The notes beneath the pieces were generated by a model. The model searched no databases. It was not told the DNA's origin and worked only from the letters and a program-made list of their open reading frames with translations. From Nocardioides anomalus (GTDB taxonomy: Bacteria > Actinomycetota > Actinomycetes > Propionibacteriales > Nocardioidaceae), in contig NZ_CP049257.1 in the NCBI RefSeq assembly GCF_011046535.1, positions 744,001 through 808,000 on the forward strand: 64,000 nt of DNA, written 5' to 3'. The translations under genes were made by a program, and so were the position numbers. Positions 5,954 to 46,385 of this stretch are shown here, piece after piece (within the stretch, counting starts at the first letter, position 1; each line of letters opens with the position of its first letter).

Positions 5954-5998
5954 GGTACGCCATCAGGGACTCGAACCCCGAACCCGCTGATTAAGAGT
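5954..5998. repeat. attL: 45-bp direct repeat of the tRNA-Lys 3' half
   Basis: Identical over 45 bases to 46317-46361. Read on the minus strand it spans the anticodon loop, T arm and acceptor 3' strand of tRNA-Lys, but the 5' half of the tRNA is missing here. Tyrosine integrases leave exactly this remnant at the tRNA-distal end. Confidence 0.92.
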
Positions 5999-6115
5999 TC
6001 CAGCGACGCCGTATCGGACGGTGCACAGCCGTCCTGATGCGTCCAGATAAGTCCGGACGCAGGCGGCGAACGTGCTTCTGCGTCCGGGAACAGACGCCGC
6101 GGTCCTCGCGGGTCT

Positions 6116-6135
6116 GTGACCAATCGGTGACCAGT
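6116..6135 (+). promoter_or_regulatory. Left arm-type integrase sites (paired 9-bp repeats)
   Basis: GTGACCAAT, then CG, then GTGACCAGT, about 118 bases inside attL. The same 20-base arrangement, with one mismatch and the same orientation, occurs at 46228-46247 inside attR. Such paired repeats flanking the core are how tyrosine integrases contact the attachment arms. Binding is inferred, not shown. Confidence 0.6.
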
Positions 6136-6158
6136 CACCGCGCGTACAGAGGAGATGG

Positions 6159-6584
6159 ATGATCGACTTCAACAACGGCTACTGCCTCGAACACGAACCT
6201 GGCCCTTGGCAGGTTTCTCACCCAGACGGTGAGCCTCCAGCGATGTACTGGGAGTCACCCCAGGAGCAATGGCCCGAGATGGCGGGGATGGCGGAGGAGG
6301 GCTATCTCGCCGAGGACATCAACTGGGGGCGCGCCCTCATCGGCGTCCCCTCGATCGCCACGTGGGACTGGACCCCGCTCAACCCGGTTCCAGAAGGAGC
6401 GGATTCAACCGACTCCTACTCAGACCCCATCGCCGCGATCATCAACGCCGCGTGCCAGGTCGGGATCGATCCGGAGTGGCTCTGCAAGCGCGCGCTGCAT
6501 ACTGCGCGCTCGACCAGGGAGGAGTCCTATGGCTGCGCCCGCGAACGCGCAGAAGCGTCTGAGACCAAGTCGGCAAAGAACTAG
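6159..6584 (+). CDS. Hypothetical protein of the element
   Basis: 141 aa, starting MIDFNNGYCLEHEPGPWQV after a good GAGGAG site. It is acidic in the middle (PEMAGMAEEGYLAEDINWG), has no membrane segment or signal, and ends in a charged tail. No family recognised. It is the first gene inside the left attachment site, followed by a strong hairpin, so it appears monocistronic. Confidence 0.6.
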   Translation: MIDFNNGYCLEHEPGPWQVSHPDGEPPAMYWESPQEQWPEMAGMAEEGYLAEDINWGRALIGVPSIATWDWTPLNPVPEGADSTDSYSDPIAAIINAACQVGIDPEWLCKRALHTARSTREESYGCARERAEASETKSAKN

Positions 6585-6596
6585 ATAGTCCTCAGG

Positions 6597-6626
6597 CCAG
6601 CGACCCCGCATGAGCGGGGTCGCTGG
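6597..6626 (+). terminator. Strong hairpin after the first element gene
   Basis: Perfect 13-bp arms (CCAGCGACCCCGC and its complement) around a 4-base ATGA loop, 12 bases after the stop of the 141-aa gene. There is no clear T-run, so it may act as a terminator or an RNA 3'-end stabiliser. Confidence 0.6.
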
Positions 6627-43999: not shown

Positions 44000-44253
44000 A
44001 GACCCTCGGTGCGGGTGGTGGTGTCGTCGTCGTCGTCCCCGGCGAAGCCGAGGTGGAGCAGGATGCCGGCCACCGGCACCTTCTTCCTGTGCCCGTACGC
44101 CAGGACGGGGAACGGGAACTCGCCCCGGTTGATGAGGTCATACGCATGGGACCTGGAGATCCCAAGGATCGCGGCAGCCGTCCGGACGTCCGTGACCACG
44201 CCGAGGTTCTCGATGTCGCACCGTGTCCAGGTGCGGCTCAGTGGAGGTGCCAT
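43996..44253 (-). CDS. AlpA-like / excisionase-type HTH protein
   Basis: 85 aa. VTDVRTAAAILGISRSHAYD then LINRGEFPFPVLAYGHRKKV is the classic helix-turn-helix plus wing of excisionase/AlpA (HTH_17) proteins. An acidic tail GDDDDDTTTR follows. It is divergent from the XRE-integrase operon with a palindrome between them, so it is likely the recombination directionality factor or an activator of excision. Confidence 0.8.
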   Translation of the reverse strand: MAPPLSRTWTRCDIENLGVVTDVRTAAAILGISRSHAYDLINRGEFPFPVLAYGHRKKVPVAGILLHLGFAGDDDDDTTTRTEGL

Positions 44254-44276
44254 CGCTCGTCCCTTCTGTTTTAGAG

Positions 44277-44293
44277 CAGAACACCATGTTCTG
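44277..44293. promoter_or_regulatory. Operator palindrome of the element switch
   Basis: CAGAACA CCA TGTTCTG: perfect 7-bp arms with a 3-base centre in the 75-base divergent gap. Further CTGTT half-sites lie on both sides. It is the only strong dyad between the XRE-integrase and AlpA-replication promoters, so it is the likely XRE binding site. Confidence 0.65.
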
Positions 44294-44328
44294 TTGAGAT
44301 GTTGAGTCTAGACATGTAGCGTCAAGCC

Positions 44329-45030
44329 ATGGCCAAGCTCAGGTGGTTCAGCCCATGGAGCGAACCGACGACGCACAAGCGCGCCGACCTCGCCGTGCCG
44401 CCTGTGAACGTGCGTCAGGTCGTCGCGTACAACCTCAAGCTGGGTCGTACCGGGAGGGAGATGAGTCAGAAGGACTTGGCGGGCGAACTGCGCCGGCTCA
44501 CGGGCAAGAAGTGGACCGTCGCCGCGGTCAGCGCCGCTGAGCAAGGGTGGGCCGCCAGAAGTCCCCGCCTGCGCAGCTTCGACGTCACCGACGTCATTGC
44601 CTTCAGCCTGGCACTGCGGCTGCCGCTGTCATGGTTCTTCCTGCCGCCAACGGCTACGCCCCAGAACGAGGAGGTGGACATCGACGCCCCGTGGATCCAC
44701 CTCGGGCGTCCCGACGAGGAGGTAGACGAGGTCCAGCTGATGACCCCCAGGTTCCTCGCCTGGCTTGCCTTCAACCACGACGCCGTCGGAGATGACCCGC
44801 TGATCGAGGACCGACTCAGCACCCTGCCCGACGAGGGTCGTGACCCTGCGCCGAAGCTGCCCTCGATCAAGGCGGGCTGGGAGCGTTTCACCACCGGGGT
44901 CGACTCGTTTGAGGAGGGTCGACTTCACGGCCTTCAAGCCGGTCGCCAAGAAGCCGTCCGTGAGGTCGCTGCGGAGCTACAGCAGATCCTCGACAAGCTC
45001 AAGAAGGGGGTGCCGTCATCGGAAGCCTGA
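44329..45030 (+). CDS. XRE-type regulator, probable master repressor of the element
   Basis: 233 aa. Residues 25-90 contain an XRE HTH: VRQVVAYNLKLGRTGREMSQ, KDLAGELRRLTGKKWTVAAV, LPLSWFFLPP. A variable middle domain (EVDIDAPWIHLGRPDEEVDE) and a helical tail (QEAVREVAAELQQILDKLKK) follow, perhaps for dimerisation or anti-repressor contact. Its 3' end overlaps the integrase start, so the repressor and integrase are one transcript, divergent from the AlpA-like and replication-like genes. This matches an Stl-like switch in phage-inducible islands. Confidence 0.75.
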   Translation: MAKLRWFSPWSEPTTHKRADLAVPPVNVRQVVAYNLKLGRTGREMSQKDLAGELRRLTGKKWTVAAVSAAEQGWAARSPRLRSFDVTDVIAFSLALRLPLSWFFLPPTATPQNEEVDIDAPWIHLGRPDEEVDEVQLMTPRFLAWLAFNHDAVGDDPLIEDRLSTLPDEGRDPAPKLPSIKAGWERFTTGVDSFEEGRLHGLQAGRQEAVREVAAELQQILDKLKKGVPSSEA

Positions 45031-46385
45031 ACAAGCGCTGCGGGTGCCCGCCGGCCTATGACAAGCGAGGCCGGAGGGTCGCCTGCAACAAGAAGCACGG
45101 CAGCTGGTCCTACGTCATCAGCTACCAAGACCTCGGGAGCGGTCGGCGCAAACAGGTGAGAGGCAGCGGCTTCGCAACCCAGGCCGAGGCGAAGAAGGCG
45201 ATGCTCGAGGCAGAGCGCAAGGCTGCCAACGGCGGGATGCGTGACGACCAACGCCTCACGCTTCAGGAGTATCTCGACGGATGGCTCGACGAGAAGGCCA
45301 AGAACTCCAAGCCCACGACCATCAAGGACTACCGCCGTCACGTCTCTGTGGACATCGCCCCGCGGCTTGGCGCGGTGCGCCTGCAAGCGCTCAGGACCCG
45401 TCACATCTCCGAGATGACACGGGCCCTCATCGACGAGGGGCGGGGTGCACCCACAGTGAGGCGGATTCACGCCACCCTGAGCTCAGCCCTAGGCGACGCT
45501 GTGCGCCAAGAACTCGTCGAGCGCAACCCCGCAACCAACGCCTGGCTGCCTCGCCACCTGAAGGCCAAGATCAACCCCTGGGAGCCTGAGGAGATCGGTG
45601 AGTTCCTGGTCTCCATCAGCGAGGACCCCTGGAGCCCGATCTTCGAGCTCGCGGTCCTCACGGGGCTGCGACGAGGGGAGCTCCTCGGTCTCAGGTGGAC
45701 TGACATCAAGGCGAACGAGGGCTGTCTCGTCGTCCGTCAGCAGGTAGTCGACCTGAAGGGCGACATCCGCTGCTCGACATGCCTGGGCGCCCACCGCAAC
45801 CTCGGCTTCTCGACGCCCAAGACGTCCAGCGGGACCGCCCGCCGTATCGATCTCGGTATTCAGGCCCTAGATCTCCTGGAACGACAGCGACTCCTGCAGT
45901 CGGCGCACATCGCCTCGTGGGGATCGGCGTACACCAATCACGACCTCATCTTCGCCCGCGACGACGGAGCCCCGATCCACCCAGAGCGGGTCACCAAGCG
46001 CTTCGCACAGATGGTCAGCAACTCCGGACTGCGTCACCAGCGGCTTCACGACCTTCGTCACGCCCACGCGTCGCTGCTCCTCGCGGCTGGCTACGACCTG
46101 GCCATCGTCTCAAAACTCCTCGGCCACTCCTCGTTCTCGCTGACCGCGGACACCTACGCCCACCTGGTGGGTGGTGTCAGCAGGAGGGCTGCCGACGCGG
46201 TGGGGAACCTTCTAGCGCGAGGGCCGCGTGACCAGTCGGTGACCAGTACGCCCCCCGGAGACGCAAGTGCCCCCTCCGACGAGAGTCGAACGGGGCACAT
46301 GACCTGCGGTGATGCTGGTACGCCATCAGGGACTCGAACCCCGAACCCGCTGATTAAGAGTCAGCTGCTCTGCCAATTGAGCTAA
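45018..46385 (+). CDS. Tyrosine integrase adjacent to tRNA-Lys
   Basis: About 455 aa. The first convincing residues are (I)GSLNKRCGCPPAYDKRGR, an arm-binding domain with a Cys cluster; homologs begin MGS or VGS at this point, so the start appears to be ATC at 45018 after AAGGGGG, or CTG at 45027. A GTG at 45156 would delete the arm-binding domain. The catalytic set is LTGLRRGELLGLRW, HDLRHAHASLLLA, LGHSSFSLTADTYAHL with the Tyr. The frame runs through attR into the tRNA (PSGTRTPNPLIKS) and stops at 46385, so its last 20-odd codons are antisense to tRNA-Lys. Confidence 0.85.
   Translation: MGSLNKRCGCPPAYDKRGRRVACNKKHGSWSYVISYQDLGSGRRKQVRGSGFATQAEAKKAMLEAERKAANGGMRDDQRLTLQEYLDGWLDEKAKNSKPTTIKDYRRHVSVDIAPRLGAVRLQALRTRHISEMTRALIDEGRGAPTVRRIHATLSSALGDAVRQELVERNPATNAWLPRHLKAKINPWEPEEIGEFLVSISEDPWSPIFELAVLTGLRRGELLGLRWTDIKANEGCLVVRQQVVDLKGDIRCSTCLGAHRNLGFSTPKTSSGTARRIDLGIQALDLLERQRLLQSAHIASWGSAYTNHDLIFARDDGAPIHPERVTKRFAQMVSNSGLRHQRLHDLRHAHASLLLAAGYDLAIVSKLLGHSSFSLTADTYAHLVGGVSRRAADAVGNLLARGPRDQSVTSTPPGDASAPSDESRTGHMTCGDAGTPSGTRTPNPLIKSQLLCQLS
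46228..46247 (+). promoter_or_regulatory. Right arm-type integrase sites (paired 9-bp repeats)
   Basis: GTGACCAGT CG GTGACCAGT, about 70 bases inside attR and within the 3' coding part of the integrase. Identical but for one base to 6116-6135 near attL. Confidence 0.6.

Follow-up and report, generated by a model that had tools for sequence, protein, structure and literature searches.

A tRNA-Lys island of Nocardioides anomalus whose integrase probably exchanges its C-terminal tail upon integration

The subject of this analysis is a 64-kb stretch of DNA, hereafter the window, which corresponds to positions 744001–808000 of the 5.12-Mb, one-contig genome of the soil actinobacterium Nocardioides anomalus and contains a genomic island of 40.4 kb occupying the 3′ half of a tRNA-Lys(CTT) gene. 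We consider it likely (at a rough probability of 0.8) that the island was inserted there by its own tyrosine integrase, here called integrase 2, and that integration swaps the C-terminal tail of this enzyme. The swap is probable because the open reading frame (ORF) of integrase 2 reads through the attachment (att) core and the left end of the island encodes a tail of the type expected for the free element; such an exchange is known for phage Mx8. Both the read-through and the existence of two tail types can be seen directly in the sequences; that the exchange matters to the element is what we infer. The features that define the element, in window coordinates, are as follows.

5954–5998, no strand assigned: left att core, a 45-bp exact repeat equal to tRNA positions 31–75
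5999–6037, plus strand: predicted integrase tail of the excised circle, 13 codons including the stop after the left core, SSDAVSDGAQPS-stop
45156–46385, plus strand: integrase 2, whose frame crosses the right core and terminates within the tRNA gene
46317–46361, no strand assigned: right att core, the identical 45-bp repeat
46316–46391, minus strand: intact target gene, tRNA-Lys(CTT)

The first-pass annotation of this DNA had claimed an integrative island in tRNA-Lys bounded to the base by identical 45-bp repeats, with an intact tRNA at the integrase end and half a tRNA at the other, and these claims held. Repeat comparison showed that the two repeats are exact, and the left core is the 3′ half of tRNA-Lys, broken at the anticodon loop; the possibility raised there, that the fragment at 5954 is an unrelated paralogue, is answered by its identity to the tRNA. 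By a rough estimate, an exact pair of 45-mers would occur by chance within 64 kb in far fewer than one per million windows. A genome-wide search with positions 45156–46391 (40 of 96 candidates scored) returned both 45-bp copies and three weak matches at 71–80%, and a search with the 76-base tRNA (all nine candidates scored) again found these two, together with two weak matches; no other full copy turned up in the genome. When a third long copy of the core was sought within 564–908 kb of the genome, the island included, none was found. The GC content drops from 0.76 to 0.645 at the left end (6.0 kb) and rises from 0.65 to 0.71 going out of the island at the right end (46 kb). Islander-type islands are described, in the portion of PMC4383910 available to us, as having an intact tRNA, a displaced 3′ fragment in the same orientation, an integrase inside, and a length of 2–200 kb. 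The window's element resembles them in tRNA and fragment layout, internal integrase, and length, with the intact gene and the displaced fragment at opposite ends in the same orientation and two tyrosine integrase genes inside. The island is thus real and of a known kind, the tRNA genomic island; what is added here to that portion of the description is a conserved alternative tail on the far side of the core.

The ORF of integrase 2, whose entry into the tRNA gene had been missed in the first-pass annotation, stays open in frame across the 45-bp core and terminates in tRNA antisense sequence, as ...GTRTPNPLIKS-QLLCQLS. In the excised form, the core would be followed by the left end of the island, so that integrase 2 would end in ...IKS-SSDAVSDGAQPS. 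When integrase 2 inserts the island at the 3′ half of tRNA-Lys(CTT), the enzyme's tail of approximately 10–13 residues would then be replaced by one encoded in the tRNA gene, as is the case for Mx8 IntP; excision would probably proceed via an AlpA-like protein encoded in the island, and the defense genes and a redox block would be cargo. The difference between the C-termini of the free and integrated enzymes is predicted from the two ends, and the family data presented below agree with it. In Myxococcus phage Mx8, according to the available portion of PMC6070905 (cited in PMC4383910), attP lies inside the integrase gene and integration gives int a new 3′ end. The window shares with Mx8 the att core inside the int reading frame and would share with it the new 3′ end upon integration. 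It differs from what that portion describes by its target, tRNA-Lys, by the shortness of the tail predicted to be exchanged, and in that the searches returned no phage structural genes. Another relative is the integration-dependent immunity of phages, which in the available portion of PMC10865867 likewise involves an attachment site within a reading frame, with the difference that integration alters the repressor there and would alter the integrase here.

Judged from their sequences, many relatives of integrase 2 share this read-through arrangement. In a survey of 67 integrase loci, the integrases with high profile scores also read into opposite-strand tRNA genes (Lys, Thr, Met), in the same frame as in the window (frame a) at L361, L363, L365, L366, L367, L393, and L397, and in another frame at L368 and L374 and, by eye, at L385 and L386. 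Fourteen of the 67, all with scores <460, have their stop ahead of the tRNA anchor, in 12 cases 38–117 nt before the tRNA; the rest of the survey includes 18 loci without a tRNA nearby, 7 without an anchor, and 17 without the motif used, which were not classed. Among the 120 homologues listed in a first search with integrase 2 as the query, a pattern sorted the tail into one frame in 67, into a second in 2, and into a third in 1, over 19 different linker lengths; 50 of the 120 were not classed, and the pattern leaves several frame-a tails among these. A naming scan with integrase 2 as the query found no relative. Two related elements, in G465 and G514, have a second core-like copy at a distance of 8.5 kb and 38 kb from the tRNA, respectively, which suggests that these elements are bounded likewise.

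A second search, seeded with the 13 free-type proteins of the first, tails included, added 69 proteins to the 120, giving 189 homologues. Their C-termini sort into tRNA-type tails (76), short non-tRNA tails (31), ends one residue past the core (8), long tails of other kinds (3), proteins cut off at the core (2), and proteins in which the pattern finds no in-frame core (69). The 31 short non-tRNA tails often read xxxDVPxGDA: 26 have 10–11 residues, V occupies position 5 in 24, and G occupies position 8 in 15. Two that are unlike the others, P0175 and P0178, were retained both in this count and in the profile described below. The 13 short tails from the first search alone give the same picture, with 12 of 10–11 residues and V at position 5 in 10. 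Opposite kinds of tail can occur on closely related enzymes, as in P0080 and P0168, which are 86% identical outside the last 60 residues.

It could be argued that nothing more than an ordinary tRNA island is at hand, that the integrase frame enters the tRNA only because stops are rare in GC-rich DNA, and that the tail has no meaning. The high GC content and the 69 of 189 homologues lacking an in-frame core fit that explanation, and tRNA-antisense tails are a common annotation nuisance. Against it stand the strong preference for one frame over the 19 linker lengths in the first search, the 14 low-scoring survey integrases that do stop before the tRNA anchor, and the likeness of the free-type tails in both length and residues, and we regard it as unlikely.

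The prediction for the left end, in which integrase 2 exchanges a free-type tail, was examined with a profile of the 31 short tails, which included no window sequence and was scored over 127,880 start positions on both strands. The start position directly behind the left core scored 9.49; 28 of the 127,880 positions, itself included, scored at or above this value, and the left end is the only one of the 28 with a stop at 9–13 residues. With a profile of the 13 first-search tails, 10 positions scored as high, and again only the left end has a stop at 9–13 residues. Leave-one-out scores of the 29 scorable tails ranged from 0.8 to 20.9 (two tails were too short). As controls, four other tRNA-Lys-like fragments from relatives reached at most 1.8 over 22 offsets, versus 9.5 for the left end, and none of 18 viral stretches with core-like sequence, chosen for GT at codon 5, reached 4. 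These 18 stretches, which came from a second pattern search, were judged unrelated by eye.

Free-form DNA was also sought in viral contigs, where the queries P0110 and P0118 gave no relative and P0097, a protein with a free-type tail, led to L471–L476. Contig L476 carries a core copy with no integrase before it, followed by QNPEVIDTDPDSS-stop, a tail with 10 of 13 residues as in that of P0097; because no integrase precedes this core copy, we take it to be a left end. It scored 7.3 when five tails of its kind were left out of the profile. Over residues 1–476, P0097 is 98% identical to the integrase of L471, which extends one residue past the core, to an IKSP-stop end at the edge of the contig, and two related contigs have the same IKSP-type end read from a tRNA. 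Profile searches of the viral contigs yielded a few relatives at 41–52% and otherwise more distant integrases, and a pattern search again returned the L476 left end only.

The conservation beyond the core could also reflect DNA rather than protein, if this region is kept as a site for the integrase (an arm or core site) and the peptide pattern results only incidentally. The attP arms adjoin the core in tyrosine systems, and GCGTCC/GGACGC motifs are repeated just beyond the tail at the left end. Against this, 26 of the 31 tails keep their length, and hence the position of the stop in frame, and the DNA of the two left ends (window and L476), compared by eye, has little in common there. We consider this explanation doubtful, though the most serious of those weighed here.

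Besides this possible DNA-level role, several observations weigh against a tail exchange by integrase 2. That the short non-tRNA tails represent free forms is something we infer from the sequences, and the tail is not universal, given the 69 of 189 homologues without an in-frame core by the pattern. The second search may favor similar tails, so that 31 of 189 cannot be taken as an unbiased proportion. When the 18 second-search tails alone were used as the profile, 335 of the 127,880 positions scored as high as the left end, 17 of them with a stop at 9–13 residues; this weaker result is balanced by that of the first-search profile. In the leave-one-out scoring, 3 of the 29 tails fell below 2 and 11 below 9.49. 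P0094 and P0125 are read in the second frame, P0156 in the third, and P0137, by eye, also in the third, and no tRNA lies close to the integrase of L364, although this relative scores high. The integrase 2 gene itself may be damaged: its homologues have approximately 50 extra N-terminal residues, and the upstream frame (45015–45155) is open and encodes that part but has no ATG, GTG, or TTG, so that a standard start is lacking. Finally, no circle was observed, and 39 stretches from relatives showed no empty attB with the window's left flank.

These 39 stretches, from 37 relatives, were fetched around the tRNA for flank comparison. In a tRNA search of 39 genus relatives, 36 matched over all or almost all of its length at 89% or more, and G031, G033, and G035 had weaker tRNA-Lys matches only. 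The right-flank gene at 52357–53022 (oligoribonuclease-like, named from context) lies near tRNA-Lys in 22 of the 39 stretches. The left flank of the window consists of thiolase and CoA-transferase genes, which were found beside tRNA-Lys in none of the 39 stretches and are located elsewhere in relatives. The genes that often stand left of tRNA-Lys in relatives are at 661–673 kb in the window's genome, approximately 77 kb beyond the left core, and the intervening DNA has host-like GC. As the window's left flank stood beside tRNA-Lys in none of the 39 stretches, the comparison with an uninserted relative did not reveal an empty site. When 1 kb of left-flank DNA was searched against 215 genus genomes, 204 had some match, in most cases a short one, with the longer matches falling in a GNAT gene at 68–77% identity; of 20 such loci, the 14 that were scanned have no tRNA-Lys. 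A search of the 215 genomes with the island split into three queries returned partial matches only, and thus no copy of the same 40 kb lacking boundary repeats, which had been proposed as an observation that would undo the island. By eye, partial second tRNA-Lys-like copies were seen in G001, G035, G004, and G008. In G001 (L124) and G035 (L131), tRNA-Lys(CTT) lies approximately 12 and 18 kb from the partial copy, and these are probably other islands of about those lengths; a gene 26% identical to integrase 1 adjoins the tRNA in G001, and the tRNA of G035 is only 74% identical to the window's tRNA-Lys.

The interior of the island was examined by predicting 43 genes with a simple codon-based caller; Pfam was applied to 40 of the 43 proteins, PHROGs to 10, and PADLOC and NCBIfam to parts of the set. 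The remaining features are as follows.

7629–9300, plus strand: ImmA/IrrE-type HTH-M78 protein and PIN-like DUF4411 protein (Pfam PF06114, PF14367; PADLOC RmrA)
10021–11082, plus strand: Mrr-type endonuclease, candidate defense protein PDC-S02 (Pfam, PADLOC)
13068–14495, minus strand: Brig1-family predicted anti-phage DNA glycosylase with a C-terminal extension of approximately 220 aa (NF047634)
16978–38118, no strand assigned: redox/hydrolase/regulator block, which recurs in other genomes (Pfam, NCBIfam)
26203–27183, minus strand: alpha/beta hydrolase, reading frame broken near 26465
38339–39523, plus strand: integrase 1, inside the island (PF00589)
43996–44253, minus strand: AlpA/HTH_17 protein, candidate excisionase (Pfam)

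The island has three composition zones: the 21-kb block, with GC of approximately 0.72 and GC at third codon positions (GC3) of approximately 0.90, lies between two arms with GC of approximately 0.65 and GC3 of approximately 0.8, and the flanks have GC3 of approximately 0.97. The block, which together with its regulators had been recognized in the first-pass annotation, encodes a redoxin, a FAD fumarate-reductase-like protein, NmrA, LtrA, an NDH2-like protein, and cytochrome b, as well as four alpha/beta hydrolases, a LuxR–ECF sigma–LuxR set, a ferritin-like protein, and a SigF-like protein. The broken hydrolase frame reflects either a mutation or an assembly error.

The block DNA matched 40 of the 215 genus genomes at E ≤ 1e−60, the window's genome included. 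We read fourteen stretches from twelve matching genomes, ten of them with wider flanks. Many block genes recur in shuffled order in G059, G204, G206, G101, G099, G150, G006, and G217, and fewer in G218, G030, G164, and G113; parts were also found in Isoptericola and Streptomyces (80 loci). The G059 copy of the block is enclosed by an intact tRNA-Pro(GGG) and, 35.6 kb away, an exact 35-bp fragment, and its ends are low in GC, like those of the island in the window.

C4:325874–361609 of G059 (L201/L202): tRNA-Pro island

No relative of either window integrase was found in the tRNA-Pro island. By eye, its low-GC arm seems to hold a membrane-protein gene flanked by two nucleotide-cyclase genes, which might be a Pycsar-like system. 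In G099, the block has next to it an integrase with 29% identity to integrase 1, and two identical complete tRNA-Gly genes lie approximately 43 kb apart around a partial block in G218 (L334/L335, C10:642686 and 685253); no island ends around the block were seen in the other seven of the ten wider-flank genomes. On this recurrence, the redox block is a separate gene cluster of the genus, which the island appears to have picked up as cargo. The block is present in the island, as first described, and is less a part specific to it than a cluster recurring elsewhere. Similarly, the description of one island with one integrase stands as to the island and fails as to the integrase: integrase 1 had been overlooked, and the element is a mosaic with two.

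Two integrases that are 38% identical, three composition zones, and the presence of the block within a different tRNA island in G059 are also what two successive islands might leave, an integrase 1 element with the redox block followed by the integrase 2 element. Such a history would sit poorly with the failure to find a third long core copy within 564–908 kb and with integrase 1 (survey locus L389), which has no tRNA or core copy beside it; we hold it to be improbable.

The left arm contains the defense genes noted in the first-pass annotation. The ImmA/IrrE-type and PIN-like proteins (PF06114 above its cutoff, PF14367 at 22.2 bits versus a cutoff of 23.5) are likely a toxin–antitoxin or defense pair, the pairing being predicted from sequence, and the Mrr-type PDC-S02 protein follows; a 525-aa protein at 11261–12838 in the same arm had no match in Pfam, PADLOC, NCBIfam, or PDB sequences. 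The Brig1-family protein scored 307.7 bits against NF047634, above the curated cutoff of 230. In the available portion of PMC11078745, two Nocardioides homologues of Brig1 protect against T4 and T6. The window protein belongs with Brig1 in exceeding the NCBIfam Brig1 cutoff, from which glycosylase activity is predicted, and differs from what is described in that portion by its location on a tRNA island and by its C-terminal extension, which is common to five other proteins (P0002–P0006, 92–97% of the query covered, among 44 matches listed from 8000 candidates scored). Other Brig1 relatives among those matches carry different extensions, for example an HNH domain.

The right arm encodes integrase 1, a DUF932 protein, a nuclease-like protein, the AlpA-like protein, and integrase 2. 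The AlpA-like gene, the DUF932 protein (a match to phrog_1221), and the small-HTH genes might be remnants of a decayed prophage or an integrative conjugative element. Among the 40 proteins searched with Pfam, no capsid, portal, large-terminase, transfer, FtsK/TraSA, or relaxase family was found, and PHROGs returned no capsid, portal, or large terminase for its 10, in line with the earlier remark that transfer and capsid genes are not visible. At E ≤ 1e−40, integrase 2 had no match in 72,556 plasmid records, nor did the homologue P0110 in 50,697 phage records. An origin of this kind is thus quite unlikely.

For tRNA-Lys elements, no report of tail exchange was found in the literature on att sites within integrase genes, which was searched in general terms and with subscription papers mostly outside the coverage. 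More tentatively than the exchange in the window itself, and at less than even odds, a switch may be proposed for a large clade of actinobacterial integrases that target tRNA genes, in which the integrase of the free element has the conserved xxxDVPxGDA tail and that of the integrated element has a tRNA-encoded or missing tail, biasing integration against excision. The redox block, for its part, presents a cluster that recurs in shuffled form across the genus and occurs inside islands at two different tRNAs. A conserved tail would allow the left ends of such islands to be predicted from the integrase and would separate free from integrated copies in metagenomes. If the switch is real, the exchange of tails would be a simple cause of directionality, and the integrase would report its own integration state without another regulator, family-wide and beyond Mx8.

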